A stretch of 64,000 nucleotides of DNA. It comes from a bacterium (GTDB lineage Bacteria > SZUA-182 > DTGQ01). Position numbers and translations under genes: made by a program. How positions within the stretch are numbered: position 1 is the stretch's first letter; each line of letters starts with the position of its first letter. A model generated the notes under the pieces. That model was not told the origin of the DNA. It made no database searches and saw nothing but the letters and a program-made list of their open reading frames with translations. This document shows, in pieces, positions 24,381-53,768 of the stretch. The stretch lies in the NCBI GenBank assembly GCA_023512255.1, contig JAILZY010000007.1:11226-75225 (forward strand), read 5' to 3'.

Positions 24381-24491
24381 CTACACTTTTGCAGAAATTT
24401 CTTAACGTCTTGAAATCCTTGAAAGTTATCTCTAACAGCAAATCCAGTAAAATCAAGGCTTTCAGAGAAAAAGGGCGAAAGTAAAGTATAG
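24381..24491 (+). mobile_element. Hairpin element family 1, copy A (~111 bp)
   Basis: It starts CTACACTTTTGCAGAAATTT and ends AAAGTAAAGTATAG. It is flanked by the direct repeat AATTAA (24375-24380 and 24492-24497). The two arms are complementary over about 38 bp with mismatches. Confidence 0.85.
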
Positions 24492-24732
24492 AATTAAGTA
24501 ACAAAAAATAAAAGTGGGCTAGCCGTAAGATTTTTATAAGGTGTTTAACTAACTGAAAGATTTACGGATAAGCATCAATTTAACCCTGCAAGAATACATC
24601 ATAAATTAATCCTGCCTCTTTGGAGATATTTGGCTCAAGTTGGGCCATACGATTGGCTTTCAAAATTGTGCTCGAGAGTTGTTTAACCTGGGTGTGTAAG
24701 CTGAGGTTTTCATTAAGGAGAGATAGGACAAT

Positions 24733-25635
24733 ATGGGCGAGGGGAAAATTTTAATTGTTGATGATGACGGTAATACTAGAGCTGCCTATAAAGACCTGTT
24801 CATCGGATGTGGTTTTGAGGCTGCGGTAGCCGAAAATGAAAACCAGGCACTGGAACTGTTGAGGAGCGAAAGTTTTCAAGCCGTACTTTTGGACCTAAGA
24901 GTCTCCAATAATGTATTGCTGCCAATTGCTGAGAGGATGAAAAAAGAATTTCCCAAGGTCTTTATCTCCATGATGCTTATTGATTCTACTCCGGCTTTGA
25001 TGAAAAGAGCGATTAAGGCAGGAATTGATGATTATCAGGTCAAGCCTATCCTGCCGATGCGGCTAATTGATGTAATTCAAAAGGGGATCTTACGCTATAC
25101 CTTAGAGGAGGAAAATTTTCAGTTAAAAAAAATGGTCGCTGAGCTTCAAGAACGACAAAAATGGATCATGCATGACCTTGAAACTGGTGTATTTAATAGC
25201 CAGTATTTTTCTGAGCGACTGGATATGGAAGTCAAGAGAGCTAAACGCCATGAGCATTGGCTCTCCCTGCTGCTTTGCGACATGGCTCGAAGCAGTCAAG
25301 GGGTTGAGGGGAACGAGGAGACTAGTGCCTCTCCTCCTTCTTCCGAGATTTTGGAGTTATTGAAAGTCTTGTCTGGAAACGTTCGGAATGTGGACATTAT
25401 CAGCCGCTACAACACAGGATTTGCCATTATCCTGCCTGAAACCACAACGGAAGGATCCTTTATCCTATGTAATCGACTAAAACGAACCCTGGCCGATACA
25501 TTTGAGGGCAGCGGAAGTAGATCGGACTGTGGTTCTAATCGCCGGCTGAATGTCCGATTTGGTGTAGCTACCTATCCTGTTGACTCGCATCTGCCCAGAA
25601 AGTTAATCAAAATCGCCGAAGATCGGCTGCAATAA
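24733..25635 (+). CDS. Response regulator with degenerate GGDEF domain
   Basis: 300 aa. The receiver domain (1-120) has VDDDGN, Asp in VLLDLRVS and Lys in QVKPILP. After a coiled linker (120-145), a GGDEF-fold domain is visible by its framing motifs (DLETGVFNSQYFSERLDMEVKRAKRH and IILPETTTEGSFILCNRLKR), but the GGDEF loop itself reads YNTGF. Catalysis is therefore very unlikely, and the domain may serve for binding or dimerisation. It sits ahead of the large sigma-54 activator and may receive phosphate from an unlinked kinase. The ATG at 24733 has GGAGAGATAGGA upstream. Confidence 0.85.
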   Translation: MGEGKILIVDDDGNTRAAYKDLFIGCGFEAAVAENENQALELLRSESFQAVLLDLRVSNNVLLPIAERMKKEFPKVFISMMLIDSTPALMKRAIKAGIDDYQVKPILPMRLIDVIQKGILRYTLEEENFQLKKMVAELQERQKWIMHDLETGVFNSQYFSERLDMEVKRAKRHEHWLSLLLCDMARSSQGVEGNEETSASPPSSEILELLKVLSGNVRNVDIISRYNTGFAIILPETTTEGSFILCNRLKRTLADTFEGSGSRSDCGSNRRLNVRFGVATYPVDSHLPRKLIKIAEDRLQ

Positions 25636-25794
25636 TAGGCTTTTCATATTCAGGCACTTTCTGCCCATAATTCTTATTATATTCATATTATATTATTATT
25701 AAACTTAGCACAGGCTAGAAGCTTAATTAAACATTAGCACGGGCTGCTAGCTGCTTGATAAAAAATTCAAGCTTTTCTTCACTCCTCATAGTGT

Positions 25795-28700
25795 ATGAAC
25801 TTACATGACCTTGCAGAAAGGTATATTGCTTCTGGAGAGATTACTTCTTCCGGTATCTATATGCTGCGCTCTGCCTTGAAAAAACTCTCCGAGGCCTACG
25901 GGGTGGAAAATGGAGAGGAGATACTGGAAACCTCTTGCTCCCGCCTTCTGGATCAGCTTGAAGAGCATTTACAAAAACAAGGGAAAACCTCTAAGGTAAT
26001 CAGGGAAAATAGATACTGGATTCGCCGGTTGATTAAATTTGGGATCCAAGCTGGTCTCATATCTGTGGTGGATGGACAAATCAGGCTGCTTCCCCAATCA
26101 ATCCCAGAGCCGAAGCAGGAAGACTCCTCTCCCGCTGAATCTCCTGCCAAACCTGCGCCTCAAGACCTAAATGAGCCGCATACTGCCGAACCTGCGCCTC
26201 AAGACCCAAATGGGCCTGAGCCGCAGGTGTATACTGATCTCAGCCAGGAGAATGATGCTAAGGGCACTGATTTTCAACTGATCAATGATTCTCAAATAAG
26301 GAAAGATGGCACCTCTCATTCAGGGAAAGAAGAAGGTCAAGGTCTATCGGGGGCTGGTTCTAATTTGCCGGAGTCAGAAAGTGTCAAGATTTTTAAAACC
26401 CCTTGGGCCATCAAACTCGTTTTGATCTTGATCGGTATTGTTGTCGTTGGTATGCTGTTTATTGCCGACATTATTCATCGACAGTTTGAAAGCTATGTTT
26501 TTGAACAATTTCAGCAACATCAGCTTGTCATCGCTCAAAGCGTGGCCAATGGGCTCCATGAATTCATGATGGAGATCGAGCGGGAACTTAACTTTCTCAC
26601 CCAATCCCGCTCGATTCAGCTTATGGATCCACGCTGTCAGGCTGAATTAAATAAGATTTATCAAATTAATCAGAAATATTTCCGAAGTCTCAAGCTGATT
26701 GACTCTCGCGGCTTTGTTCGTTTTGGGGTCACAGAAGAGGGAAAGGTTATCGAAAGAGATGCCCCTAGTGGGCTTGAGGTGTATCTGCCTTCTGCTCAAA
26801 AATGGTCAGAGCAGGTTCATACCGTACTGCTTTCCTCTCCATCTTCCAAGGACAGGCTGCTGTTGATGTTTGTTCCGATTACTATTATCTGCCCAATGGT
26901 GAAGAATTTACCGGAGGTTTCAGGTGGAGAGATCCAGGCCAGATTTATTGTGGCCGAAATCGACCTCCTGAAAACCGCTCAAACTTTTCTCCAGCACGTG
27001 AATTCAGGGGATAAAAAGTATGGTCTGCTAATCGACCGGGATGGGAAAATTTTGTATCACCCAAACAATAAATACATAGGGGAAAATTTTTTATCTGATG
27101 ATCCATCTAGTTCATCATCTCGGAGTCGTCAGAAGCAGCAAAACAGCCGGCAGCTAGTGCTGGAAAAAATCCAAAAGGGGCTAGAGGGATTCAGCGAGGA
27201 AAGCTCTCTGGACGATATAAAGCTTATCGGAAGCAACCAGTTGAAATTGTTTGCTTATTCTCCACTCAGGATTCATGAGCAACTCTGGTCAGTAGTGATA
27301 GCCGCCCCTTATGAGGAGATTCATCCGATTAATCGGGTTCATCGCAACATCGCCTTGCTTGTTATTGGCCTCTTTTGTTTGGTCAGTCTGGGAACCTTTA
27401 TTATTTTTAAAGTTAATAAAAAGCGGATAAAGGTTGAAGAGGAGATCAAGCATCTGGAAAAGAAACTTGATATGGAGGATCAGATTCGCAAATCAGAAGA
27501 GCGGTTGCGGGCTATTCTGGAATCTATAGGCAGTGACCGGATCTCTATTTTAAACAAAAATCTGGAGATCATCTGGGCCAATCCAGTAGCTCTTCAAAAA
27601 TATGGACAGGATATCATTGGCCGCAAGTGTTATCAGGTATATAAAAAGATAGACACCCCCTGCACCTTCTGTCCGGTGCAGAAAACTTTCGCTGATGGGA
27701 AAATTTACTCAGCCGAAGAATTTAGTATCGCTGACCAAGATGGTGCCACTGTCCTATATCTTACCAGCACATCTCCCATTCGTGATCGGAATGGGGAAAT
27801 TACTTCAGTCGTTGAAGTCTCAAAGGATATTACCGAGAGGGTGAGACTTCAGGAGGAGATCAAGAGCAGCCGGGATTTACTGGATGCTATATTAAATAAC
27901 ATGAACGATGGGATCCGGGTTATTGATACCAAGTATAATATTCTGTTCATGAATCAGAATTTAATCGATCTGTTCGGAAATCAAATCAGCAAAAAATGCT
28001 ATCGGGTGTTTATGGGAGGTGATGCTCCCTGCAATCCATGCGCTTTGGACAAAATTTTTAAAGAGAATCAAGGGACAATTAATTTTATCAAAGAGGATAA
28101 ACAGAGGCGGCTAATCGAAATTTCCGCTTCTCCCCTGAGCATGGAAGAAGGGAGTCGCTCAATTATCGAGGTGGTCCGCGATATCACGGAAAGGAAGAGA
28201 CTGGAATCACAGCTTATCGAATCAGAGCAGCGGCGGATCAAAGAGCTGAAAGAGCGGTATAGATTTGGTAATATTATCGGCAAAAATCCTAAGATGCAAG
28301 AAATCTATGAGCTTATTCAGGTTGTAGCTCAAAATATGACTACGGTTTTGCTGTTAGGGGAAAGCGGGACAGGGAAAGAGTTAATCGCCAGGGCTATTCA
28401 TTATAATAGCCCTCAAAATGAAAAGCCCTTTGTGGAGGTTTGCTGCTCTGTATTATCTGAAAATCTACTTGAGAGCGAATTATTCGGCCATGTCAAGGGT
28501 GCGTTCACTGGGGCCATACGTGATAAAATAGGCCGATTTGAAATGGCTGATGGTGGGACCATCTTTCTCGATGAGGTTGGTGATATCAGCCCATCTATCC
28601 AGGTTAAGCTGCTTCGGGTTATTCAGGAGCGGGAATTTGTTCCTGTTGGTGGAGAAAAGGTAAAAAAAATAAATGTCAGGATTATCGCGGCAACCAACAA

Positions 28701-29253
28701 AGATCTGAAAAAAGCGGTTGAACGCAAAGAATTTCGGGAAGATCTCTACTATCGTCTCAACGTAATCACCATCCATATCCCACCCTTGCGAGAGCGAATG
28801 GAAGATTTGCCGATCTTGGTTAACCATTTCATTGAAAAGTTCCGGGAAAAGACGAAAAAACCGATTCAATCGATTAGCAATCAGGCCTTGGACCTGTTGT
28901 TCGCTTATTCCTGGCCTGGGAATGTGCGAGAGCTGGAAAACGCTATCGAGCATGCCTTTGTCAAGTGCGAGGGCACAATCATTAGACCGGAAAATCTACC
29001 GCTGGAGCTACAGTACCCACGAAGTAGAGAATATCCCGCTCGCCCCATTGACCAGCAGCCGCTGATGGATGAGTATCCTGACAATAAGCAGGATTTAAGC
29101 TTGAATGACTTTAAAAAAGATCTCCTGCTCAAGGTATTGAAAGATACCGATTGGGACACAGATGAGAGCGCCAGGATTTTGAAAATTAGCCGAGCCACCT
29201 TTTATCGCTGGCTTAAAAAGTACAACATTAGTCGAAATTCTGTATCAAATTGA
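25795..29253 (+). CDS. Membrane sensor sigma-54 transcription activator
   Basis: 1152 aa. Residues ~1-105 look like a helical SAM-like/recombinase core-binding fold. A Pro/Asp/Gln linker follows, then a membrane helix (~205-225), a Cache-like extracytoplasmic sensor (~230-510), and a second helix (~520-540). Two PAS domains each carry a Cys pair ([16 protein letters not shown] and [15 protein letters not shown]). The AAA+ domain (~840-1070) has GESGTGKE, the sigma-54 contact GAFTGA, and GGTIFLDE. The C-terminus is a Fis-type helix-turn-helix ([20 protein letters not shown]). It would couple a periplasmic ligand directly to sigma-54 promoters, fusing sensor and activator. Target genes are not known. 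Confidence 0.9.
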
Positions 29254-29626
29254 GATTTTATTCTATAGCGCTACAAAATCTAATAACTATTTGTAAATAT
29301 AGATATTTTTATCTATACTAAAGTGTCGATCCTAATAATTGTCTCACCGTGATATCTCTTTTTGTCCATAAATTTATTCTAAACCTATCCATAAAATAAC
29401 TGATTTAAATCGAGATGACGGTAAATTACCTTGTAGATTCAAAGGCTCGATCTATAAAATCTCCAATTCCCAAAATTGGCATCAGAAATGCATTTTTTAA
29501 GAAGCGTAAGGATAAGATAAAAAGTAATAACTTAGAAAAGATGTGAAAACAACAGAGAATAAAATTTAATAATAAGGTAAATTTTGGCCATACATGTAGG
29601 GGATACTCTCTAAGATGTATGCCTGG
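29254..29626. other. Gene-free stretch before an orphan terminator
   Basis: About 370 bp with no supported coding frame, AT-rich, ending at a strong terminator. This may be a long 3' untranslated region of the activator or a small RNA. Confidence 0.4.
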
Positions 29627-29669
29627 GGCTATCAGTGCGGTGCTGGGGAGCAACTGATAGCCTTTTTTT
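29627..29669 (+). terminator. Strong intrinsic terminator
   Basis: Stem GGCTATCAGT / ACTGATAGCC (29627-29636 with 29653-29662), an inner TGCT-GGGG-AGCA hairpin, and a T-run at 29663-29669. It stands 374 bp behind the nearest rightward gene. Confidence 0.85.
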
Positions 29670-29694
29670 ATTTACTCTCATCTACTCTTACTCT

Positions 29695-29800
29695 CTACAC
29701 TTTTGCAGAAATCTCTCCATGTCTTAAAATCATTACGAAAGTTATCTTTCCATACCAAACCCAATAAAATCGAGGGTTCTGAGAAAGTGCCAAAGTATAG
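29695..29800 (+). mobile_element. Hairpin element family 1, copy B (106 bp)
   Basis: It starts CTACACTTTTGCAGAAAT and ends CCAAAGTATAG. Flanks TTACTCT (29688-29694) and TTATTCT (29801-29807) match at 6 of 7 positions. This is the most diverged copy. Confidence 0.8.
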
Positions 29801-29953
29801 TTATTCTCCTTTAACGAGAAAGTATTATCCTGCCCCTACCTTGTATTTTGCCCCAAAATCCGATATCATAGTCAACAAATTAAGTTAACAAATTAAATGG
29901 TACGATAAAAAATTTATTCACCAAAAAGCCTCGTCAAAAAGGACGAAAGCAAG

Positions 29954-30343
29954 ATGCAAACTTCTACTATTGTGGTTAGCCTCCGCCAGGTGTTCTCATT
30001 TCTGATCTATGCTGTTTTCTTTATCCTATGGATAGCCTTTCCGGTTTGGTTTGGTATCCGAAGAAGACAGGGATTAATTAATCTCAGAAATCAGAATGAG
30101 CATGGTACGGAAAGAAGAATGGTTGATTATTTAGAGTTAGGCATATTTTTCTTTGCCATCCCATTTACCAGCTTTTTTATTGTCGTTACCGCCAACCTCA
30201 TCCTAAGTCCCTTTATTGCTGAACCGATGGCTAGGCGCGAGACGAGTCTCGAGCTGGCTTCTCTGCTCATGGATGTTGCCCTTATTCTTTATATAATTTT
30301 AGCTGAGCGGAAGATTCACCTAAAGCGGACAATCGGGAAATAA
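29954..30343 (+). CDS. Small membrane protein, unknown
   Basis: 129 aa with three hydrophobic segments: ~13-35 (VFSFLIYAVFFILWIAFPVW), ~59-84 (FFFAIPFTSFFIVVTANLIL) and ~100-118 (ELASLLMDVALILYIIL). Basic loops lie between them. No family is recognised. AAAAGGACGAAAGCAAG precedes the ATG, which supports translation. It lies alone between hairpin elements B and C. A small perfect hairpin (CTGCCGCT/AGCGGCAG, 30361-30388) follows the stop but lacks a T-run. Confidence 0.6.
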   Translation: MQTSTIVVSLRQVFSFLIYAVFFILWIAFPVWFGIRRRQGLINLRNQNEHGTERRMVDYLELGIFFFAIPFTSFFIVVTANLILSPFIAEPMARRETSLELASLLMDVALILYIILAERKIHLKRTIGK

Positions 30344-30543
30344 TAGATGAAAGACAAAATCTGCCGCTGGACAGTCTCAAGCGGCAGTCGCATGAAAATT
30401 CGCTCTTATACCTTTACTCGGCAGTTAAAAGCTCTCCTCTAAGTCTCAAAATTAGACTAATAAGCAAATTAAACACATGACAAAAAGCATCGGTCCTTTG
30501 CCTAGTCGAACTTTTTAATTTTAACATGATAGTTAATAAATAA

Positions 30544-30648
30544 CTATACTTTTGCACTTTTTCTCTGACCCCTTGATTTTAGTGGGTTTGGTATGAAAGA
30601 TAACTTTCAAGAAGTTCAAGGCATGGGGAGAGTTCTGCAAAAGTGTAG
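30544..30648 (-). mobile_element. Hairpin element family 1, copy C (105 bp)
   Basis: Reverse orientation: it begins CTATACTTTTGCACTTTT and ends TCTGCAAAAGTGTAG. A 5-bp AATAA lies on each side (30539-30543 and 30649-30653). Confidence 0.8.
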
Positions 30649-30703
30649 AATAATAGTGAAGTGGGAATAAAAGTGGTAATGGACGCGAATTTCTTTTCTT
30701 GCC

Positions 30704-30778
30704 TGGTGGAGGACAGGGGATTTGAACCCCTGACTTCTGCCATGCGAAGGCAGCGCTCTCCCGCTGAGCTAGTCCCCC
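30704..30778 (-). tRNA. tRNA-Ala (anticodon CGC)
   Basis: Read leftward, the acceptor strand GGGGGAC pairs with GTCCTCC, followed by discriminator A and an encoded CCA (30704-30706). The D arm is GCTC-AGCGGGA-GAGC. The anticodon stem CTGCC/GGCAG holds the loop TTCGCAT (anticodon at 30744-30746). The T arm contains GGTTCAAATC. The G3-U70 pair in the acceptor stem is the classic alanine identity element. Confidence 0.95.
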
Positions 30779-31027
30779 GATCTATTTGAACAATTGATTA
30801 TAATAAACCTCCCCGATTAAAGTCAACTCATAAAATGCATAAAAACCACAAGCTGCTATATTTCATAGCCGTTATTTATAACTGAAGCAAACACTCTCTC
30901 TTTGCTTATCACAGAACCCAAGGGCATAATGTGATATTACCATTGTGAAAAGTATCAAAAAAGAGTATACTCTTCAGCAAATAGCAAGATTCATGATGAG
31001 CCTGTTTGCTGTGAGGGAGCATTGAGG

Positions 31028-32149
31028 ATGAATTCAAAACAAGAGTTTGAAGTTGTGGTCATAGGCGGGGGACCTGCTGGAGCGATAGCTGGCCGATATG
31101 CAGCCTTGCGGGGAGCGAGGGTCCTTTTGCTAGAGCAGAAAAAGAAGATCGGCATTCCTATCCGCTGCGGCGAGTTTTTCCCGACAGCCGAAGAATTAGA
31201 AAAGATTTTTGTGCGCAGCCAATTGGTCCCTGAGCTTTACCATATCCGCGACGATCTTATCGCCCAGCGGATCGAGATCGTCAGGGTGTACTCTCCAAAA
31301 GGCAGCAGCTTTGATATGCCGCTCAAAGGGCATAGTGTATACCGGGATAGGTTTGAGCAACATCTGCTGGAGGAGGCAGCCAAAGCCGGAGTTACGATTC
31401 AAATGGACAGCCGGGTCGATAAGGTTCAAAATGGTGCAGTTTATGCGAAAGGGAGAATTTTTCGCCCCCAGGTCATTATCCTGGCCTGCGGCCCGAACCG
31501 AAACCTGCTCAATCCTCTAGGTATATCCGTTCAGAAAGATATTGCTATCTGTGTCCAGTACCTCATGGAAAATGTCAAGATCGAGCCCAGGGTGGTTGAA
31601 ATGTATTATGGAAATGTCTCGCCGGGGGGATATGCCTGGGTAATCCCCAAGGGAGGGGATCGGGCGAATATTGGGCTTGGGATACGCCGAAGGTTTTACG
31701 ATCAGAATATCTTAAAGCTTCTGGACGAGTTTATTCAAAGTCCCTCTATGATAAATAAGACAGCCTGTGGCCGGAAAATTTCCACTATCGCTGGTCTGGT
31801 GCCGGTCAATGGCCCTGTGCGAAAAACCGTTATCGGAAACATCATCCTGGTCGGTGATGCCGCAGGGCACGTTATGGCTACCAATGGCGGGGGAATCCCT
31901 ACGGCCATGATCTGTGGCCGCATAGCTGGAGAGGTCAGCGCTGATCATGTTCGGCAGGACAGACCTCTTGAGGACTACGAAAAGCAGTGGAAGAGAGAAT
32001 GTGGCCGTGAATTTGCCAATGCTCTTCATACCCGAAAGCGAGCTGATTTTGTTATCTATCGATTGGGCTGGGCAGCGGAAATCTTGATGAGGCTTGTAGG
32101 CCCTAGAGTTATTTCACGGGCTTTGAAATGTGCCTTTGTCGGGCCATAA
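31028..32149 (+). CDS. FAD-dependent geranylgeranyl-reductase-family protein
   Basis: 373 aa from the ATG at 31028 (GGGAG ten bases upstream; an in-frame TTG lies at 31022). The N-terminus is a Rossmann FAD site (VVIGGGPAGAIAGRYAA, then LLLEQKKKIG). PIRCGEFF has the conserved Cys-Gly of the family. The second FAD motif is GNIILVGDAAGHVMATNGGG, followed by an A-x-x-x-G-R-x-A-G-E helix. Family members reduce isoprenoid double bonds in lipids, quinones or chlorophyll side chains. Here it starts a likely operon with a radical SAM protein and a phosphatase, so a role in isoprenoid or membrane lipid modification is plausible but not shown. Confidence 0.85.
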   Translation: MNSKQEFEVVVIGGGPAGAIAGRYAALRGARVLLLEQKKKIGIPIRCGEFFPTAEELEKIFVRSQLVPELYHIRDDLIAQRIEIVRVYSPKGSSFDMPLKGHSVYRDRFEQHLLEEAAKAGVTIQMDSRVDKVQNGAVYAKGRIFRPQVIILACGPNRNLLNPLGISVQKDIAICVQYLMENVKIEPRVVEMYYGNVSPGGYAWVIPKGGDRANIGLGIRRRFYDQNILKLLDEFIQSPSMINKTACGRKISTIAGLVPVNGPVRKTVIGNIILVGDAAGHVMATNGGGIPTAMICGRIAGEVSADHVRQDRPLEDYEKQWKRECGREFANALHTRKRADFVIYRLGWAAEILMRLVGPRVISRALKCAFVGP

Positions 32150-32207
32150 TTTTTGGAAATTCATGGTAAGAAAGTATAATAAATAAAATTAAAAATAAAT
32201 ATAAAAT

Positions 32208-33068
32208 ATGAATGCTATTGACTATATAAATATCTGGTATCGCATTGTGCGGCGAAAACCGATCGGGTTTAGCATCGACCTCACTCATCGCTGTACCCTC
32301 TCTTGTCAGACCTGCTACATGAAATGGTACCAAAATCAGCCGGAAATGTCCACCGAGCAATGGGAAAAGCTGCTCTCTTCTTTTCCGCCAAGCTACCGCT
32401 ACTATGGAGCCTGGACAGGAGGGGAGCCTCTTTTGCGGGCCGAAAGTATTGAGAAATTGATTCACCTGTTTAAATGGAACTGGGTGGCCACAAATGGCAC
32501 TATCCCGCTCCCTACTACCTGGAGGAATGTCTCCTTTCTGGTTTCCATTGATGGCAATCAGGAGATTCATGACCAACAACGGGGGCACTGGGCAGAGATA
32601 GTCAAAAATGTGCGCCCTGACTGTTTTGTCATCTATGATATCACTACTATCAACTGTACAGAGAAGATCTTACGAGAAACTGTAGATTTCTGGCACAAGC
32701 GGTGTCGGGGAATAATCTTCGGTTTCTATACGCCATCGCTCAATGATACCTCAGGGCTGCTCCTAGGGCCGCAGGAGCGCCGAGCCACGGTAGAGATTAT
32801 CAGAAAATTAAAACAAGAACATCCCTATTTCATTGTCAACAGTATAAAACAGCTGGAAAATTGCTGCACTACTCCCTGGAGCCAAAATTGCCCTGCGGGC
32901 AACTGTATTGTCGGATTAACCGCTCAGGGTGAGTTCAAAAATCCATGTGTTATGGGCTCTCAAGTAGATTGCTCAAAATGTGGCTGTGCAGTGCCTCAGT
33001 TTATGTATCTTGTGCAGCGCCTTGATATTCCGGCAATTCTGTCTTCAATTCGGATACTCTCAAAGTAG
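32208..33068 (+). CDS. Radical SAM protein with C-terminal cysteine cluster
   Basis: 286 aa. LTHRCTLSCQTCYMKW holds the CxxxCxxC iron-sulphur motif, followed by WTGGEPLLRAESI (SAM-binding GGEP). Strand motifs such as WVATNGTI and FLVSIDGNQEIHD fit the TIM-barrel. The C-terminus has seven cysteines (CCTTPWSQNCPAGNC, then NPCVM and DCSKCGCA), a SPASM/Twitch-like auxiliary cluster region. It would modify a peptide, lipid or cofactor. The substrate is unknown. It lies 58 bp after the FAD reductase and 6 bp before the phosphatase, so the three are probably co-transcribed. Confidence 0.85.
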   Translation: MNAIDYINIWYRIVRRKPIGFSIDLTHRCTLSCQTCYMKWYQNQPEMSTEQWEKLLSSFPPSYRYYGAWTGGEPLLRAESIEKLIHLFKWNWVATNGTIPLPTTWRNVSFLVSIDGNQEIHDQQRGHWAEIVKNVRPDCFVIYDITTINCTEKILRETVDFWHKRCRGIIFGFYTPSLNDTSGLLLGPQERRATVEIIRKLKQEHPYFIVNSIKQLENCCTTPWSQNCPAGNCIVGLTAQGEFKNPCVMGSQVDCSKCGCAVPQFMYLVQRLDIPAILSSIRILSK

Positions 33069-33074
33069 CTTTCA

Positions 33075-33713
33075 ATGGATAAGACTCCGATCCAGGCCAT
33101 CATCTACGATCTTGATGGAACTTTGATTGATTCACGGCCCGATCTGTACACAGCCACCAATGCCATGCTTAGGCAGTTGGGGCTTGCTCCAAAGGGAGGT
33201 GAGGAGCTCAAAGGCTATATCGGCATGGGGGTGAGGCACTTGGTTAGGCGAGCGATTGGGGATCATGAGCATCTGTATGAGGAAGGTTTCAGGGTCTTTT
33301 GCCATTACTACCACCAGCACTTGACCGATCGCACTTTACTGTACCCGGGAGTGAGTGAAGCGCTTGAGTATTTCAGGCATAAAAAACAATTTGTCCTAAC
33401 CAATAAGCTTGATCGGGAAGCGAAAATGATAGTGCAACAACTGGGCATCGCCTCCTATTTTACTGAGGTCATTGGCGAGCGTGAAGGGATGCCGTTAAAG
33501 CCAGATCCATTCGGGCTACTGGCCATTCTCGACACATACGCTCTTGAGCGGACAGGTACGGTTATGGTTGGAGACAGCGCTATTGATATTGAAACTGGCC
33601 GTAAGGCAGGGGTGATCACGGCCTTTGTAAGCAGTGGATTTGGCCAGCCGGCGGATTTGAGAGCAGATATCACCGTTGACTGCCTGAGTGATCTTAAGAA
33701 TTACTTCGCCTGA
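33075..33713 (+). CDS. gph: Phosphoglycolate-phosphatase-like HAD hydrolase
   Basis: 212 aa. HAD motif I is IYDLDGTLIDS with both catalytic Asp residues. A helical cap follows (residues ~20-80). Motif II is FVLTNK, motif III is KPDPFG, and motif IV is VGDSAIDIETGRKAG. Length and motifs fit phosphoglycolate phosphatase (Gph) or the related beta-phosphoglucomutase group. It would remove phosphate from 2-phosphoglycolate or a similar small molecule. The stop region is tandemly duplicated (33699-33716 and 33717-33734), leaving a ghost TAA behind the TGA. Confidence 0.83.
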   Translation: MDKTPIQAIIYDLDGTLIDSRPDLYTATNAMLRQLGLAPKGGEELKGYIGMGVRHLVRRAIGDHEHLYEEGFRVFCHYYHQHLTDRTLLYPGVSEALEYFRHKKQFVLTNKLDREAKMIVQQLGIASYFTEVIGEREGMPLKPDPFGLLAILDTYALERTGTVMVGDSAIDIETGRKAGVITAFVSSGFGQPADLRADITVDCLSDLKNYFA

Positions 33714-33763
33714 TCTAATTACTTCGCCTAATCTCGGCAACATATAAGGCATATTTTTATCTC

Positions 33764-33869
33764 CTACACTTTTGCAGAAATTTCTTAGCGCCTTGACATC
33801 CTTAGAAAATTACCTCTAATAGCAAATCCAGTAAAATCAAGGCCTTAGAGAAAAAATGCAAAAGCATAG
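33764..33869 (+). mobile_element. Hairpin element family 1, copy D (106 bp)
   Basis: It starts CTACACTTTTGCAGAAATTT and ends AAATGCAAAAGCATAG, so the end repeats read CTAcaCTTTTGCA/CTAtgCTTTTGCA. It is flanked by a perfect TTATCTC duplication (33757-33763 and 33870-33876). It differs from copy E at about four positions. Confidence 0.9.
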
Positions 33870-33876
33870 TTATCTC

Positions 33877-42523: not shown

Positions 42524-42618
42524 GGATACCAGGAGGATTTTTAATACTTATCTTTGGATATACTTGTCTTTGGATAATAAGAGATTTCAAACCCAGGAGA
42601 AGATGAGGAGAAAAAGTC

Positions 42619-43060: not shown

Positions 43061-43178
43061 TGCTCTTATATATCAGACACCATAAACCCTCAAGGTATAT
43101 CAGAACAACAATAAACCCTCAAAGGAGCTTAGCTCTTATTAGGGTTATGTCTCTCAATGGTAGCTAATAATAAGAGCT
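43061..43178 (+). mobile_element. Short inverted-repeat element, family 2, copy 2 (118 bp)
   Basis: It begins TGCTCTTATATATCAGACAC and ends TAATAATAAGAGCT. Perfect 8-bp flanking repeats AATTTGGA are at 43053-43060 and 43179-43186. It contains an internal ~27-bp duplication of the ATAAACCCTC segment compared with copy 1. Confidence 0.85.
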
Positions 43179-43359
43179 AATTTGGATGCTAATTTTGCTG
43201 AAATCTTGGAGGATAATTTACCAATTTATCGAAATTAAAGCATATTAATTATTCAAGACATTGAAATTATTAATTTTATATTTTCTCTGTAAGTTATTGA
43301 AATTATTAACTAAATATTGAATATAAGATAACTTATTAAAAATATTAATTTTATACAAA

Positions 43360-43620: not shown

Positions 43621-43770
43621 TTACCCTTCTACTATAGCGAGGTTTAAGGGTATCGGCAGGAAGCAGACCAGGGGGGAAATTCCCCTTGAATTTTTGAGGC
43701 TATATTCAATATAATTATGGCAATATGGCTAAACTGAGAACTCCCTGGCTAAGAGCTGAGGTAAACAAAT

Positions 43771-43940: not shown

Positions 43941-43945
43941 CAGTC

Positions 43946-45745: not shown

Positions 45746-46257
45746 ATAAATCCATTGTTCTCCTCCGATAAGGGGGTAGATTATTAAACTTGCCACCCCT
45801 ATCGAAAGGAGAGACAATGGATTGGCAAACCCTATTAATCACTGTTTTTGTATATATCAGTGAAAAGTATAAAACCCAGCTTTGGCCTTTTTGCCAAAGG
45901 ATGAGTAACAACAACAATCCCCAATTTAGCGATGAAGAACTGCTCACCATTTTTATTTATGGTGTTATGAAAAAACGTTTCGAGCTTAAAGATATCTACA
46001 ACTACGCCAATAACCACTTGCGGGAATGGTTTCCCAAATTACCTTCCTATGTAGCCTTTGTCCAACGTCTTAATCGGTTCGATAGCCTATTTCCCATGCT
46101 TATTGAACTCATTCTCAATGATTTTTCCGAATCTGACCTCATCCCCCACATCCAGCTTATCGACTCTATGCCCATAATCTTAGCTAAGGCCAAAAGAAGT
46201 GCTAAGGCTAAGGTTGCCAACCAGGTGGCCAATAAAGGATATTGTGCCTCTAAGGAT
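45746..46257 (+). mobile_element. Truncated IS982-like insertion inside mod
   Basis: An open frame from 45826 or 45790 begins MDWQTLLITVFVYISEKYK. It has family-like segments FSDEELLTIFIYGV, LREWFPKLPSYVAFVQRLNR, LIDSMPII (first catalytic Asp) and VANKGYCASKD. It is cut off right after GYCASK, before the last catalytic residues, and joins in frame to the displaced Mod end. The left boundary is near 45736-45790, at the GGGTTGAATAAATCC region. A 3' deletion has removed the other end, so the element cannot transpose on its own. Confidence 0.75.
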
Positions 46258-46476
46258 GGTAATTTAGAAACGCTCTCTATGGTCATGCTGGACTACGACT
46301 TTGACGGCGAGGTCTTTGACCTGGATGAGGTCTTCTACGCTGAGGAATTAAAGAAGAATGGCTACGAGGTGCGCTTTGCCGAGGACAAGGTTAAAGAGCG
46401 GATCATGGTAATCTACATTGATATCTTCGGCAATGAGAAGCGGGAGATAAAGAAGCTCTCTGACTTCAACGGGTAA
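46258..46476 (+). pseudogene. Displaced 3' end of mod, in frame with the transposase fragment
   Basis: The frame continues from the transposase as NLETLSMVMLDYDFDGEVFD, then VFYAEELKKNGYEVRFAEDK and IYIDIFGNEKREIKKLSDFN. This looks like the end of a Mod-type protein (D-G-E-V-F, then Y-I-D-I-F-G-N-E), not like a transposase. The stop at 46474-46476 lies 14 bp before res, the normal mod-res spacing. The fused product (45790-46476) may be made. Confidence 0.7.
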
Positions 46477-46490
46477 AGGAAGAGGTAATC

Positions 46491-48983
46491 ATGCTTGAAC
46501 AACCCTTTCAAAATAAGGACTTAGTCCTTAAGGTGTCCTCCAACTACGACCCGAAGAGGTTTGATCCGAATAAATACGAGGCTTTTTTAGATGCCCTTTG
46601 CGGGGACAGGGAGTATCAGAAAGAGGCCATTCGGGCGACGCTACGCTATTTTTTGGGGGGCGAATACAAAAGCCTCAAGGAACTGGCGGATGAAAACTAT
46701 AACCAAAACCCCAAGCTTCAAGAGAAGTATTCCTCTTTCGAGGATTTTCTTGCGCACCTGCAACTACCGGATAAGCTCTCCTGCTCCCTGGATCATGCGA
46801 CTGCCACAGGCAAAAGTTATGTGATGTATGGCATCGCCCGCATTATGCTTGCTGATGGAGCTATAGATCAGGTTTTGGTCCTGTGTCCTTCTAACACCAT
46901 TGAAGAAGGTTTAACGGAGAAGTTTCGGAGCCTATCCGCTGATAGAACCCTCAAAGACCTTCTGCCTACCGATTCCAAAGTTGCTAATCCCCGGATCATC
47001 AATGCCTCTAACACTATCCAAAAGGGGGACATCTGCATTGAGAACATCCACGCCACCTACAGCAACACCAAGTCGGCCATAGAAGACAGTCTTGTCGGGA
47101 AAGGTGAGCGAACTCTGGTATTGAATGATGAGGCGCATCATTTGATGAGCCCCTCCTCCAATACTGCCCTCAAAAAATGGAAGGAATTTTTACTTGATCC
47201 CAAATACGGCTTCAAATTTATCGTGAATGTTTCGGGCACCTGTTATATTGGGAATGACTATTTCACTGATGTCATTCATCGCTTTTCTTTAAGGGATTCC
47301 ATCGAGAAGAAGTTTATCAAATCTATCCGATATGTGGCGGAGGACTCCTCGGGCAGCGAGGGCGAGAAGTTTCAAAAGATTTACGATAATCATATTGAGA
47401 ATAAGACGGTCAAATATCGCAAGGTTAAACCTATCACCATCCTAGTTACCAAGAACATCGCCGCTTGCAAGCGTCTCACCGATAAACTGATCGATTTCCT
47501 TGCCAAAAAAGAAAATATCAGCAAGGAGCAAGCTGCCAAGAAGGTCTTAATTGTTACCTCTGCCAGCGAACACAAGGACAATATACCTATCCTGCGGAGT
47601 GTGGATGATAAGGACAATCCCATTGAGTGGATTACTTCCGTCAGTATGCTCTCCGAAGGCTGGGATGTGAAAAATGTCTTTCAGATCGTCCCCCATGAAG
47701 AACGGGCGTTCAATTCAAAGCTCCTTATTGCCCAGGTCTTGGGAAGAGGCTTGAGGGTGCCTGAGGTTTACAAGGGCAATCAGCCTGTAGTAACCGTTTT
47801 CAATCATGATAAGTGGTCAAAGAAAATCAAACACCTGGTAGATGAGGTTCTGGAACTTGAGAAGCGCGTATACTCTTATCCTGTTATGAAGAAAGAGGAT
47901 TATAACTTTGACCTTTACAACATTGATTACAAGCGTAACGAGGAGGAGGTTGAATACCCGCAGAAAGACCCCTATGAACTCCTGAAAAATGGTTACATCA
48001 ACTATTCGAGCCAGGCGGAGAAGGTAGAAAAGAACACAATCTATGCCAGGGCAGTCTCCGGCGAGCAGGATATCAAAAAGACGCTGATTGAATTAAAGAT
48101 GTATTCCATTGAAGAAGTAGCGCACGATGTCTTTAACCGTCTTTTTATTTATGATCAAGAGGCAGGAACGAGCTATAGAGAGCAGTTTCCTAAGGACAAG
48201 ATTGCAGAGATAATCAAGACCTCTCTTGAACGCATTAGCGACAAGACTGGCAAGCTGAGCGAGGCGAACCGTAATCAGACCCTAGCAGCATTTAGCGTGA
48301 TTAGAAGAAAGGGAGCAAAGAGCCTACGGCTAAGTATCGAAGACAAGGAACTCATCAAAATAAGCACCAGAAAAATCGGCAAAAACAGCTTAGGTGTAGG
48401 ATCACTTCGGCGTTATAGCACGGTCTTTTACGATGATTATTCCTTAAGCCTGGGGGAGGCGGCGGATAGAAAATTGCTAAAAGAGCTTGAGGAGGATGAG
48501 AGCCTTCCAAAATCTGCCCTGATAAAGGTGGAGAATAAATACAACTTCAAGACGCCTCTCAATTTGGTCCTGGTTTCCTACGAACCTGAACGCAGGTTTA
48601 TCCTGGGGTTGACTGACAAGCAGACAGCCAAGGAAATAGATGCCTGGATTAAGTCCCTCGATGTGGGTTTCTACAGTATCGAATACTCCTGGCGGAAGGG
48701 AGAGCATCCCAAGCAGGGAAGTTTCAATCCTGATTTCTTTATCAAGAAAGGCAATGACATTGTTGTAGTGGAAATTAAAATGGACAACGATGTATCCGAT
48801 GAGAATAGGGCTAAGCTCAGGTATGCAAGGGAGCACTTTGCCAAGGTAAACGAGTTGCAGCAGGAGCAGAAGTATTATTTCAAATTCCTCTCCCCGGGGA
48901 GCTTTGACCTATTTTTCGAGGCGCTCAGGAACGGCGCTTACAAGGACTTCAAATCCGAGCTTGAGAGAAAGTTAGAGGAATAG
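46491..48983 (+). CDS. res: Type III restriction enzyme Res subunit
   Basis: 830 aa. Helicase-like P-loop DHATATGKSYVMYG (about 100-113), DEAH box VLNDEAHHLMS, SAT-like NVSGTCY, and motif VI QVLGRGLRVPE. The C-terminal nuclease is PD-(D/E)xK: FNPDFFIKKGNDIVVVEIK. It cuts DNA in complex with Mod after ATP-driven translocation. The gene is full length, with GGAAGAGG upstream of the ATG at 46491. With an interrupted Mod, the Res subunit could be inactive, or dangerous to the cell if it still associates. Codon use does not stand out strongly by eye. Confidence 0.9.
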   Translation: MLEQPFQNKDLVLKVSSNYDPKRFDPNKYEAFLDALCGDREYQKEAIRATLRYFLGGEYKSLKELADENYNQNPKLQEKYSSFEDFLAHLQLPDKLSCSLDHATATGKSYVMYGIARIMLADGAIDQVLVLCPSNTIEEGLTEKFRSLSADRTLKDLLPTDSKVANPRIINASNTIQKGDICIENIHATYSNTKSAIEDSLVGKGERTLVLNDEAHHLMSPSSNTALKKWKEFLLDPKYGFKFIVNVSGTCYIGNDYFTDVIHRFSLRDSIEKKFIKSIRYVAEDSSGSEGEKFQKIYDNHIENKTVKYRKVKPITILVTKNIAACKRLTDKLIDFLAKKENISKEQAAKKVLIVTSASEHKDNIPILRSVDDKDNPIEWITSVSMLSEGWDVKNVFQIVPHEERAFNSKLLIAQVLGRGLRVPEVYKGNQPVVTVFNHDKWSKKIKHLVDEVLELEKRVYSYPVMKKEDYNFDLYNIDYKRNEEEVEYPQKDPYELLKNGYINYSSQAEKVEKNTIYARAVSGEQDIKKTLIELKMYSIEEVAHDVFNRLFIYDQEAGTSYREQFPKDKIAEIIKTSLERISDKTGKLSEANRNQTLAAFSVIRRKGAKSLRLSIEDKELIKISTRKIGKNSLGVGSLRRYSTVFYDDYSLSLGEAADRKLLKELEEDESLPKSALIKVENKYNFKTPLNLVLVSYEPERRFILGLTDKQTAKEIDAWIKSLDVGFYSIEYSWRKGEHPKQGSFNPDFFIKKGNDIVVVEIKMDNDVSDENRAKLRYAREHFAKVNELQQEQKYYFKFLSPGSFDLFFEALRNGAYKDFKSELERKLEE

Positions 48984-49261
48984 ATAGATTGATGGAAATT
49001 AACCGATGCCCCGACACCGAAGCCTGAATCTAAAGAAGTTTATTGGATTCAATACCTGAGCCTCTGATTGAGGAGTATTTCAAGCAGAAGATTGAAAGGA
49101 TTCTTTTCCCCTCAAAATTTTTGACTACTACCTGCCAGGATGTCGCCAAATCTGCGCCTTTGCTCCTCCAATTAAAGATTAATAAGTGGCCGGAGCCTGC
49201 GTTCAGTCAAGATGGGCGAGGGCAAGGGATCGCTAAGAGCAGCAATGGCTTTAATGGATAA

Positions 49262-49489
49262 AAATCTTCTCATTTTCAAGCTGCTACAGACAGCTTCAGA
49301 AGAAAGGATTGGGCCGAATATGGGCGATGCCAGGCGAAAATGCACCAGGCTATTCAGGACCTGTCAGCAGCCTTAGACAAAAGCGATAAGATGAAGCAGC
49401 AGATCAGCGACCATAATCATAAGAACCCCCAGCCTAAAAATCGCTACTCAGGGAAGGACTTGTCAAACAAGCTGGCCCACAGGCAATGA
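49262..49489 (+). pseudogene. UPF0182-like gene end (remnant)
   Basis: A stop-free frame of about 75 codons ends at TGA 49487-49489. It includes FRRKDWAEYGRCQAKMHQAI then QDLSAALDKSDKMKQQ. The pattern (R-x-x-D-W-A-x-Y-G, then a helix with Leu) matches the C-terminus of large UPF0182 membrane proteins. No start codon or upstream membrane part is present. It marks the right edge of the island. The assignment is by pattern only. Confidence 0.4.
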
Positions 49490-49515
49490 GAAAGATCAGC
49501 CCCCTATTTTTTGCC

Positions 49516-50520
49516 TTATCCGCCGATACTGTTCATGAAGCGATTACACTTTAGGGCTGAGAGTCGGCTTCGGTCAGGCCCTGAGGCTGGTTTGTTTTCA
49601 ATCCCCTTGATGAAAAGCTGCCGCAGCTCATCATCACTGCCCCCTGCCCGCAGGGCTGCTTTGATGTCTATCTCCTGGCTTGAGAAGAGGCAGCTTCTCA
49701 GTTTCCCATCCGCCGTGATCCTGATTCGGTTGCAGGTTGAGCAGAAGTGATTGCTCATCGGACTGATGAACCCGATCTTTCCAGCCGCCCCTCCCTCAAA
49801 TTGAAATAGTTGAGCCGGACCATTTTCTGAGCCTAATGAGGAGTCGCCACAGGTGGCTAAAGGGATGAGGGGGCGGTAGGCAGTAATAATCTCCTTTATC
49901 TGCTGACAGGAGAAAAATTGCCGCTCTTGCCAGAGCTGGCTGTTGCCGAGAGGCATGAATTCGATGAACCGGATGTGAAAAGGATAATTAAGGCTTAATT
50001 TGGCCAGATCCAAAACCTCATCCTCGTTGATCCCCCTTATGACCACCATGTTGATCTTAATGGGAAAAAATCCAATTTCTCTGGCCTTTTGAATCCCTCT
50101 CAAAACCTGGATCAGCCGATCATGGCCAGTGATATCTTGATATTTTTTTCGGTTTAAAGAATCAAGACTAATGTTTATCCTTCGAAGACCTGCCTTATAG
50201 AGATCAGGCGCCATTTGCTCTAGCAACACTCCATTTGTAGTCAGAGAAATATCCCTCACTCCCTCAAGCCGGGCAATCGCCTCTACCAGCTTAGTGACAT
50301 CTTTTCGGACCAGCGGATCTCCCCCAGTGAGACGAACCTTGCTGATTCCGCATCTGACCGCAATCTGAATTAAATGCAGAATTTCCTCATATGAGAGAAT
50401 CTGAGACCTTTCAAGCTGACGGAGTTTTTTAGGCGGCTGGCAGTAGATACACTTGAGGTTGCACTTGTCAGTAATTGACACACGGATGTAGTTGATCTGA
50501 CGCTGATGTAAGTCTAACAT
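49516..50520 (-). CDS. moaA: GTP 3',8-cyclase MoaA (molybdenum cofactor)
   Basis: 334 aa. Radical SAM cluster SITDKCNLKCIYCQPP, then the GGDP motif in VRLTGGDPLVRKD. A C-terminal second cluster is CSTCNRIRITADGKLRSC (C-x2-C-x13-C). The protein ends FMNSIGG, the usual Gly-Gly tail needed for activity. It converts GTP to a cyclised intermediate in the first step of molybdopterin synthesis. AAGGAAAGATT precedes the ATG. It is divergent from the mob-moeA pair, with a 363-bp spacer between them. Confidence 0.95.
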   Translation of the reverse strand: MLDLHQRQINYIRVSITDKCNLKCIYCQPPKKLRQLERSQILSYEEILHLIQIAVRCGISKVRLTGGDPLVRKDVTKLVEAIARLEGVRDISLTTNGVLLEQMAPDLYKAGLRRINISLDSLNRKKYQDITGHDRLIQVLRGIQKAREIGFFPIKINMVVIRGINEDEVLDLAKLSLNYPFHIRFIEFMPLGNSQLWQERQFFSCQQIKEIITAYRPLIPLATCGDSSLGSENGPAQLFQFEGGAAGKIGFISPMSNHFCSTCNRIRITADGKLRSCLFSSQEIDIKAALRAGGSDDELRQLFIKGIENKPASGPDRSRLSALKCNRFMNSIGG

Positions 50521-50883
50521 AATCTTTCCTTGCCAAAATTATGAACTAAAATTACAATATTCTCCTTATTTTTCATAAGGCCGAGCTTGATTAATAGACT
50601 GCGCCCTTGTTACATATCCAGGCAAGATGGGCCGAGATAATCACTAGGCGACCTTATCATTAACGTTATCATTATTAAGTATACCATTTATTAAGTATAC
50701 CATTGGTCTGCCATTTACTTCCACCGAATGAGAGAGTGTTTTTAAATATTTTTATTTTTTTTCTCAAGTGGCTATGGTAAAAAATAATGTCTAGTTGCAC
50801 ACTCTCTTTTAGTTACATGCTCTATTTTTAAAGATATTGGAAAGATACTAGAACTATTTAGAATTTAGAGAAGAGGATATCCC
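50521..50883. other. Divergent promoter region between moaA and mob genes
   Basis: No gene is seen. A 16-bp tandem duplication (ATTAAGTATACCATT) lies at 50674-50705. AT-rich ends on both sides suggest divergent promoters. No riboswitch structure was recognised. Confidence 0.5.
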
Positions 50884-51924
50884 GTGAAAGTAATTGTTAT
50901 TTCAGGCTCAAGTTCTAATGTCGGCAAAACCACCTTGGCCAAAGCAATCTGTGAAACCTTGCCTGGAGCCGTATTTGTCAAAATCGGTACCGGAGCCAGG
51001 AAAGAGACCTCCTCAGATATCCTGTATCCTTTTGGCACATCCTTTCGGGATATAGAGGCAGATCATTCTGGAGCAAGCTTTCTGATAATTGAAAGTAATC
51101 ACATTTTGACTGAACTTGATCCTGATCTTTGTATTTTTCTGGGGGGAAGCCCTGGCCGGGATGAAAAGCCATCCGCTGCTCTGGCTAGGCAAAAGGCCGA
51201 CATTGTCCGCGGCCAGAGGGTGAGTGGAGAAAAAGCCGCCGCTTTGGGCCGCAGACTCAATCTCTGCCTGGATAAAATCCACGAGCTTTGTTTTTTGGCG
51301 GGAGCAAATCCAGAACCTGTCAGTGCCATCATCATGGCCGGCGGATCAAGTTCTAGGATGGGGAGGAACAAGGCTCTCCTCAGCATGGCTGGCAAGACCA
51401 TGATCAGGCATATTTATGATACCTTGAGGCCGCTCTTTGACGAGGTGATTGTTTCGGTATCGAAGAAAGAGCACACCTCACTGATTCCAGAGGCCAATAC
51501 GGTGATTGATCTAAAATCTGGGCAGGGGCCGCTTATGGGGATCTACTCTAGCCTCAAGGCATCTTCCAGCCGGGTGAATTTCATCATCGCCTGCGATATC
51601 CCTACGGTTAACCTGCCCCTTTTAAGAAGGCTTCTATCCTGTTCTTGGCAATATGATATTGCTGTTCCATCATTTAAGCCGGGAGAATACGAGCCGCTTT
51701 TTGCCGTCTACACCAAAAAAGTGGCCGAGGCAGCCAAGACTCTCCTAGATCAGGATAGGAGGAGAATTTGTGAATTATTTTCCATCTGTAACACGAAGGT
51801 TGTGGAAATTGCCAACCACCTCTGGTATGCAAACCTAAATACTCCCTCCGATTATCAGGATTTTATTTCGAAGGAAAAGGATAAGAAGAAAAATAAGGAG
51901 GATGAAGAGCATGATTTATTTTGA
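50884..51924 (+). CDS. mobA: MobB-MobA fusion (molybdopterin guanylyltransferase)
   Basis: 346 aa starting at GTG 50884. The N-terminal domain (~1-140) has the P-loop ISGSSSNVGKTTLA of MobB-type GTPases, but the later part is atypical (IGTGARKETSSD). The C-terminal domain (~148-340) is MobA: IIMAGGSSSRMGRNKALLSM (nucleotide loop) and IIACDIPTVNLPLLRR (Asp-Pro-like metal site). It attaches GMP to molybdopterin. The last codons overlap moeA, and AAGGAGG for moeA lies inside its tail (51895-51901). The very basic KEKDKKKNKEDEEH tail is probably unstructured. Confidence 0.85.
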   Translation: MKVIVISGSSSNVGKTTLAKAICETLPGAVFVKIGTGARKETSSDILYPFGTSFRDIEADHSGASFLIIESNHILTELDPDLCIFLGGSPGRDEKPSAALARQKADIVRGQRVSGEKAAALGRRLNLCLDKIHELCFLAGANPEPVSAIIMAGGSSSRMGRNKALLSMAGKTMIRHIYDTLRPLFDEVIVSVSKKEHTSLIPEANTVIDLKSGQGPLMGIYSSLKASSSRVNFIIACDIPTVNLPLLRRLLSCSWQYDIAVPSFKPGEYEPLFAVYTKKVAEAAKTLLDQDRRRICELFSICNTKVVEIANHLWYANLNTPSDYQDFISKEKDKKKNKEDEEHDLF

Positions 51925-53101
51925 TGAAGCCTTGCAGATCGTATTGTCATCTGCGGTGGTAATAACGGAGAGTGAACACGTTGGCCTGAGCATGACGCTG
52001 GGAAGAATTCTGGCCAGTGATATCATTTCTGATATCGATATTCCACCCTTTGACAAATCAGCCATGGATGGCTATGCTTGTCGGGCGGCTGATCTTGATC
52101 GGCTGTTAAAAGTGATTGAAGTTATACCCGCCGGCTATCGACCCCAGAAGGTAATTGGCCAGGGAGAATGCTCAAAGATTATGACCGGAGCTATGGTTCC
52201 CGAAGGGGCTGACTGCGTGGTTATGGTTGAGCACACGCAGGAAGAGAATGGATTTGTGCGGGTGCTGAAAAAGGGCGGCCCGGCCAATATCTCCCCTAGG
52301 GCTGAAGACCTCAAGCAGGGAGATACAGTTTTGAGCCGGGGAACTATAATAACTCCCGCGGAAATCGCTGTCTTGGCCTCGGTTGGCTGTGATCCGGTGC
52401 CGGTTGTCCGAAGGCCGGTAGTTGGAGTTTTAGCCACCGGCAGTGAGCTGGTTGAGCCCTGTCAGAAACCTACCCCAGTTCAGATCAGAAACAGCAATAG
52501 TTATCAGCTCTGTGCCCAGATTGAGCGAGCAGGCTGTGTGTCTTGCTACTTTGGCATAGCTGAAGATAATCCGCAGATCATTGATCGGATGCTCAAGCAG
52601 GCACTTGCGGAATCCGATGTTGTCCTGCTGTCCGGCGGAGTATCAATGGGAGATTTTGACTTCGTGCCTGAAATCTTACGGCAAAACGGGGTCAGCCTCA
52701 AATTTGAAAAGGTGGCTATAAAGCCTGGCAAGCCGACCGTATTCGGCATTCGCGACGGTAGGCCGGGGGCCAGATATTTTTTTGGTCTGCCAGGCAATCC
52801 TGTTTCAACCTTTGTTTTGTTTGAGGTTCTGGTTAGACCATTTCTTTTCAAATTGATGGGAAGCTCTGATCAGCGGACACGGGTTATGGCCAGACTCAAA
52901 AAAGACCTGAGGCGTAAAAAAACAGATAGGCTAGAGCATATTCCTGTCTTTCTGAATGCTGACGGACTCGTTGATACGATTGACTACCACGGCTCTGCCC
53001 ATATTCACGCCTATACTAGGGCCAACGGAATCATAGTTATACCGCAAGGGGTTGAAGAAATCAAGGCGGATAGCCAAGTTTCGGTACTGTTGATAAATTA
53101 A
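51911..53101 (+). CDS. moeA: Molybdopterin molybdotransferase MoeA
   Basis: 396 aa from the ATG at 51911; AAGGAGG at 51895-51901 is nine bases upstream, whereas an ATG at 51902 touches it and is less likely. DIPPFDKSAMDGYA is the domain-I hallmark. TGAMVPEGADCVVMVE and VGVLATGSELVEP follow, then SGGVSMGDFDFVPE (Mo-binding loop) and a C-terminal domain. It inserts molybdate into adenylated molybdopterin. It overlaps the mobB-mobA fusion, so the two are translated together. Confidence 0.95.
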   Translation: MIYFDEALQIVLSSAVVITESEHVGLSMTLGRILASDIISDIDIPPFDKSAMDGYACRAADLDRLLKVIEVIPAGYRPQKVIGQGECSKIMTGAMVPEGADCVVMVEHTQEENGFVRVLKKGGPANISPRAEDLKQGDTVLSRGTIITPAEIAVLASVGCDPVPVVRRPVVGVLATGSELVEPCQKPTPVQIRNSNSYQLCAQIERAGCVSCYFGIAEDNPQIIDRMLKQALAESDVVLLSGGVSMGDFDFVPEILRQNGVSLKFEKVAIKPGKPTVFGIRDGRPGARYFFGLPGNPVSTFVLFEVLVRPFLFKLMGSSDQRTRVMARLKKDLRRKKTDRLEHIPVFLNADGLVDTIDYHGSAHIHAYTRANGIIVIPQGVEEIKADSQVSVLLIN

Positions 53102-53320
53102 TGGTTCTTTCGCTAATAAAGCGCGCAATTTTGGCGACCACAGGTGGCCGCCCCTGCGAAGTGCCCGACCGTAAAGGCTTATAACTTGACATAATGAGGT
53201 AGCGATAGACAAGAAAAATAATTATCTGGCTAGAAGGTTATAACTCATTATGGTTGGTTGCTGATTTATTGGGTAAATTGGATCTGCTCTCGCACTTGAC
53301 GAGGAAACCAGTTAGCTGCT
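53102..53320 (+). repeat. Dispersed repeat family 3, copy 1
   Basis: TGGTTCTTTCGCTAATAAAG at the left end is repeated at 59440 (TGGTTGTTTCGCTAATAAAG) and in short form near 40975 (GGTTCTATCGCTAA). ACTTGACGAGGAAACCAG at the right end (53291-53313) matches ACTTGGCGAGAAAACCAG near 41083. The ends are conserved while the middle differs, so this may be a mobile or decayed element. Limits are approximate. Confidence 0.45.
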
Positions 53321-53662
53321 ATAAGCTATTAAAAAGCGTAAGAATTAAAAATCTCTCCCGTCTTACTATGCGGATAAATTTTTAGAAGTTTTTGCCTTGT
53401 AATTCAATATATAAATTTGATATAATAAATTCGTTATTTAAATATTTAGGATTTAAATATTTAAGAATCTTGACTATACTTTTCAAAATAAAGCTACTGC
53501 CCCAATAATTCATCGATGATTCATCGAGAAAAACCAAAAAGAGGGGAGGAGTGAATTTTGACTTTCAGGTAGTTTGAATTTATGATGCTCAAACCCTTTT
53601 TGTATAGGTAGTTGTCGATGAGCCCGTAATGAAAAAATAACGACTTATCATTTCTCATCTCA
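53321..53662. other. AT-rich spacer
   Basis: No gene is seen. The region is AT-rich with short stuttered repeats (AAATATTTAGGATTTAAATATTTAAG). Confidence 0.5.
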
Positions 53663-53768
53663 CTATGCTTTTGCACTTTTTCTCCAAGGCCTTGATTTTA
53701 CTAGATTTGCTATTAGAGGTAACTTTCTAAGGATGTCAAGGCGCTAAGAAATTTCTGCAAAAGTGTAG
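53663..53768 (-). mobile_element. Hairpin element family 1, copy E (106 bp)
   Basis: Reverse orientation: it starts CTATGCTTTTGCACTTTT and ends TTCTGCAAAAGTGTAG. It is nearly identical to copy D (about four differences). Flanks ATCTCA (53657-53662 and 53769-53774) are identical. Confidence 0.9.

Follow-up and report, generated by a model that had tools for sequence, protein, structure and literature searches.

A family of short hairpin elements with the features of MITEs, probably mobilized in trans by an IS701-like insertion sequence

The 64,000-nucleotide stretch of bacterial DNA analyzed here (the window) carries five copies of a short hairpin element, designated A to E. They are listed below with their target-site duplications (TSDs), along with the members of a second repeat family present in the same stretch.

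24381..24491, + strand: copy A, 111 bp, with a degenerate right end and a weak hairpin; TSD AATTAA, 6 bp (left 24375..24380, right 24492-24497)
29695..29800, + strand: copy B, 106 bp, CTATAC right-end subfamily; TSD 7 bp with one mismatch (TTACTCT 29688..29694; TTATTCT 29801-29807)
30544..30648, - strand: copy C, 105 bp, CTATAC right-end subfamily, adjoining tRNA-Ala (30704-30778); TSD AATAA, 5 bp (30539..30543 and 30649-30653)
33764..33869, + strand: copy D, 106 bp, CTATGC right-end subfamily, with a strong hairpin; TSD TTATCTC, 7 bp (33757..33763 and 33870-33876)
53663..53768, - strand: copy E, 106 bp, 96% identical to copy D; TSD ATCTCA, 6 bp (53657..53662 and 53769-53774)
19069-19162, 43061-43180, and ~56200-56297: second MITE-like family (also at L034, L058, and other loci)

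An initial annotation had placed and oriented the five copies correctly, and they align as one family carrying the ends that it described. The direct repeats of 5–7 bp at their flanks read exactly as it gave them, and copies D and E are as close to identical as it proposed. All five copies lie in spacers, either between open reading frames (ORFs) or beside the tRNA gene, and the claim that they have no coding capacity is borne out. The terminal inverted repeat (TIR) pattern CTAYRCTTTTGCA is present at both element ends. When two or fewer mismatches are allowed, this pattern occurs 15 times in the window compared with 6.0 expected, a count that is reached in none of 100 shuffles.

The window comes from a draft genome (the source genome) with 172 contigs and a total length of 3.83 Mb, across which the initial annotation proposed that copies be counted. 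A search of this genome with a covariance model based on 31 copies yields 104 matches at a cut-off of E ≤ 0.01, which indicates a family of ~100 copies. The same search gave no matches in genomes G001 (same genus), G002 and G003 (same family), or G004 (same order). Genome-wide, CTAYRCTTTTGCA is found 194 times at ≤1 mismatch, versus six times for a reversed control pattern. Copies occur in both orientations, and the 40 with complete flanks are 100–121 bp long, with a length of exactly 105 bp in 29 of them. At least two subfamilies can be distinguished by their right ends, which are either CTATGC or CTATAC. When the TIR pattern plus part of the left arm was used as the query, there was no match in viral contigs and one lone end in a Clostridiales draft genome (L064), near which no second end was found.

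Many members of the family differ very little from each other. The 41 aligned copies represent only 35 distinct sequences, the top pairs are 99–100% identical, and copies that are identical in sequence sit at different genomic sites. Near-identical copies at different sites, together with the absence of the family from four relatives, agree with the earlier suggestion of recent movement. Judged by identity, the D/E subfamily appears to be young. Many contigs start or stop within a copy of the element, a pattern that repeats sharing long identical stretches would be expected to produce, and the family accounts for many of the breaks in the draft assembly.

G001, the genome from the same genus, has conserved the gene order on both sides of copies C and D and lacks the elements. 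The corresponding spacers are heavily changed, and no clean orthologous empty site was found there for either copy. The spacer corresponding to copy D holds ~1.6 kb of other DNA, and the one corresponding to copy C holds a TIR-like remnant, CTTTACTTTTGCA, with the rest of the element missing. Because of this remnant, the insertion at C could be an old one.

Target-site duplications were surveyed in 40 distinct copies that have both ends and complete flanks. Exact duplications of 6–8 bp flank 24 of these copies (6 bp, n = 10; 7 bp, n = 8; 8 bp, n = 6), compared with ~0.2 expected from random or mismatched pairing of flanks. Several of the other 16 copies have a 7- or 8-bp duplication with one mismatch. 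The target sites are AT-rich. A search for empty sites, as had also been proposed, was successful in the source genome. The copy at C131:128-232 sits inside another genomic repeat, and its flanks, once the element and one 8-bp duplication are removed, give an 88-column alignment to an element-free copy of this repeat at window position ~59414-59502. The alignment crosses the insertion point, and the pair therefore represents one paralogous empty site.

The initial annotation had also considered a REP/hairpin family that acts on RNA. The elements would then be REP/BIME-type or other extragenic palindromes that function as terminators or mRNA stabilizers and that, if mobile, are moved by a Y1 transposase. 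REP elements are shorter, lack target duplications, and rely on Y1 transposases. Both they and the present family are extragenic, palindromic, and multicopy, and 38 of 40 copies examined here are not spanned by an ORF of at least 100 aa. However, the present family has TSDs, which Y1/REP elements do not make, and a DDE-type partner (described below). The claim of a long hairpin in each copy proved to be true in part: Copies C, D, and E fold better than shuffled sequences (z of −3.4 to −4.9), whereas the fold is weak for copies B (−2.4 and −1.7) and A (−1.6 and 0.0). In the consensus fold of 31 copies, compensatory change is seen at one of 18 pairs and the covariation term is 0.17 kcal/mol. The 24 copies located between co-directional neighbors are split evenly between the two orientations (12 along, 12 against), and an Rfam search of the window returned tRNA only, with no match for the hairpin element. 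The near absence of covariation, the lack of orientation bias, the Rfam result, and the presence of TSDs favor inverted DNA ends over an RNA under selection. We consider an RNA-acting palindrome to be highly improbable, and we infer that hairpin potential is a by-product of the long inverted arms, not a function.

Several copies are located only 4–60 bp away from ORFs, and there are precedents for the co-option of MITEs (reviewed in PMC10969869). These facts would fit a scenario in which the family originated as a MITE and some copies were later recruited as promoters, terminators, or attenuators of neighboring genes. Such recruitment seems unlikely, however, given that there is no sign of purifying selection on either structure or orientation.

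A candidate for the mobilizing element can be found at the ends of contigs in the source genome. Terminal parts of a larger insertion sequence (IS) lie at 12 contig ends, and this IS has the 18-bp terminus of the MITE, CTATACTTTTGCACTTTT. Seven contigs end in the left IS end (CTATACTTTTGCACTTTTGGTATGGAGC...) and five end in the right IS end (CTATACTTTTGCACTTTTGAGCGACTAA...). Each group is identical over 75–77 bases, after which the contig ends, and the two groups have CTATACTTTTGCACTTTTG in common. A reading frame, MGKKIEWHTLLRE, is opened by the left IS end, and one is closed by the right IS end with YWTHLTHPMLLLKTGN. The 12 ends look like those of a multicopy IS whose body has been collapsed and is missing from the bin. 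Among the 35 possible left-right combinations, four share an exact 6-bp flank (TTATTT, ATTAGT, AAATTA, and TTCATA), compared with ~0.16 expected at the background rate of the MITE survey, and each matched right end pairs with a single left end.

The larger IS is thus a partner in the same genome that shares the TIR of the MITE; its coding capacity is presumed, as the body is unassembled. The two terminal pieces of the IS gene, 25 and 16 residues long, gave no match in Pfam. The TIR and IS-end patterns have no match in viral contigs, and the left IS end has none in plasmids. Since the MITE and the larger IS have only their terminal 18 bases in common and differ in their interiors, a simple internal deletion in this IS would not yield the MITE. 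As other candidate partners, the DDE_Tnp_1 transposases of the source genome were rejected, as they lack this TIR.

When 386 genomes were searched for CTMTACTTTTGCACTTTT, only the source genome and G004 proved to have many copies; a few are present in G106, G373, and G095. One interval of 1,559 bp in G106 (G106:C62:1614-3172) is a complete element bounded by two TIRs that face each other. An ORF in this element has matches to NF049999 (NCBIfam, IS701 family transposase; 1.8e-35) and to DDE_5 (Pfam; 8.8e-11). The ORF is interrupted by a frameshift, and no target duplication is visible at the flanks of the element. In two other genomes (G002:C194 and G095:C45), the contig edge cuts off an NF049999-like gene, and the TIR is positioned just past the C-terminal end of that gene. 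The search for a transposase with matching ends that the initial annotation recommended therefore leads to an IS701-like DDE enzyme, with one-sided evidence in G002 and G095. In three genomes besides the source genome, sequence comparison in this way ties the TIR to predicted IS701-like transposase genes, whose NF049999 scores all fall under the curated cut-off of the family. The source genome has only partial NF049999 matches, which are at other places and lack this TIR.

The form of the ends was compared with that of related elements. TIRs identified de novo around other NF049999-related transposases (CTCGACTTTATCC, CTCGACTTTGTAC, CTAAACTATTGTA, and CTATACTTTTGCA) have the form C...ACTTT or ACT, and the elements with readable flanks have duplications of 5–8 bp. 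The published consensus for IS701 ends is ---YACT-Y--YR (De Palmenaer et al. 2008; PMC2266710). Both CTATACTTTTGCA and CTACACTTTTGCA agree with this consensus at seven of seven defined positions; the CTATGC right ends of the D/E subfamily depart from it at position 5. The canonical duplication of the IS701 family is 4 bp (PMC2266710), compared with 6–8 bp for this MITE family, and for this reason we refer to the mobilizer as IS701-like and not as canonical IS701. The Geobacillus IS701 elements ISGka1 and ISGka2 likewise have variable, AT-rich duplications, in their case of 4–9 bp (PMC8024623).

Mobilization by a different IS family, such as IS1634 or IS4 (ISPepr1 subgroup), would require that the likeness to IS701-type ends be a product of convergence. 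IS1634 ends start with C and its duplications are AT-rich and 5–6 bp long, duplications of 7–8 bp are made by ISPepr1 (PMC2266710), and the body of the source-genome IS is missing from the assembly. Nevertheless, three independent genomes tie this very TIR to NF049999/IS701-like transposases, and the related de novo elements exhibit the same TIR form along with duplications of 5–8 bp. The involvement of another IS family is therefore judged to be quite improbable.

We favor the explanation that the elements are a MITE family mobilized in trans by an IS with the same 18-bp terminus, which is probably IS701-like, and assign this reading a probability of about 0.88. The MITE identity first proposed from the window gains from the TIRs, the TSDs of 24 of 40 copies, the 104 model matches, the lack of coding capacity, the near-identical copies, the absence from relatives, and the existence of a partner with the same TIR. 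The ~105-bp elements would be non-autonomous DNA transposons that consist of ends only and have no gene. Their termini, CTACACTTTTGCAGAAA... and either CTATACTTTTGCACTTTT... or CTATGC..., would be bound and cut in trans by a DDE transposase, which the larger IS of the same cell bearing the same 18-bp terminus would supply. A staggered cut made during integration into AT-rich spacer DNA would produce the 6–8-bp TSD. The transposase most probably belongs to the IS701-like group (Pfam DDE_5, NCBIfam NF049999), and we infer that the missing body of the source-genome IS is also IS701-like. Several points stand against this explanation. The IS body was not recovered from the source genome, and the TSD length differs from the canonical 4 bp of IS701 (PMC2266710). 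In addition, the MITE interior differs from the IS ends, the G106 copy has no visible TSD, and the same-genus genome offers no clean orthologous empty site.

Short elements with the same ends are also present in other genomes. G004 carries elements of 117–118 bp with ends CTCTACTTTTGCACTTTT and interiors that are unrelated to the source-genome family. It has 79 TIR matches at ≤1 mismatch (loci L106, L099, L103, and L087), and 6–7-bp duplications are present in four of the six copies with complete flanks. In G095, an interval of 191 bp is bounded by CTATACTTTCGCAGAAA and CTATACTTTCGCACTTTTT, and its ends are asymmetric in the same manner as those of the source-genome family. These sequences suggest that short elements arose more than once around the same ends. 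A broader proposal, which we regard as evenly balanced, is that the TIR type of the IS701-like branch has repeatedly spawned MITE families whose interiors are unrelated, each in a different bacterial lineage (105 bp in the source genome, 117 bp in G004, and possibly 191 bp in G095). If so, they would be the first MITEs to be assigned to the IS701 group, with variable TSDs of 6–8 bp.

Bacterial MITEs with known parent IS elements include MITEAba12 (PMC6382973), MITEPye1 with IS1182 (PMC11578231), and Chunjie and others (PMC10969869). The present family resembles these in being short and noncoding, in having target duplications and TIRs shared with an IS, and in its location mostly in spacers, but its sequence and parent are different. 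MITEPye1 is present in one to three copies per chromosome (PMC11578231), whereas the family described here has ~100. Its likeness to the NF049999 branch of the IS701 family lies in the end consensus, in the NF049999/DDE_5 transposases adjoining the TIR in three genomes, and in the variable AT-rich duplications. In contrast to these IS elements, the MITE encodes nothing, and its duplications are not of the canonical length.

This MITE family is new; the kind of element is well known, and general understanding of MITE-type elements is unchanged by it. The open-licence literature searched yielded no MITE that had been assigned to the IS701 group, which is not proof of absence or of novelty. Within that literature, the present findings extend MITEs to the IS701-like transposase group, and they name a probable mobilizer for a repeat family that is abundant in an uncultured bacterium. 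The 105- and 117-bp elements, with the same ends and unrelated interiors, are natural short substrates with which the end-base requirements of IS701-like transposases could be tested.

Other repeats and features were observed along with this family. The second MITE-like family has ends TCGCTCTTATATATCAGACACC and TCGCTCTTATTTATTAGCTACC, is ~90–140 bp long, and is represented by 20 distinct ends in the loci examined; at L034 and L058 it is inserted within copies of the hairpin family. A third spacer repeat, TTATTAGTGGTTNTTTCGCTAATAAAGTGC..., is present in the window at 53097-53142 and 59436-59481 and also at L009, and is the target of one copy of the hairpin family. At L036 (G000:C3:27562 onward), a truncated right element end, CTATACTTTTGCACTTTTTCTCCGA, may now serve as a gene leader, since an ATG and an open reading frame follow it directly. 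A 252-aa ORF at window position 54103-54861 has no Pfam match and ends in a tandem repeat with a unit of 15 bp (5 aa) at 54708-54869. Finally, a spacer at window position 7011-7090 contains a perfect 40-bp tandem duplication.
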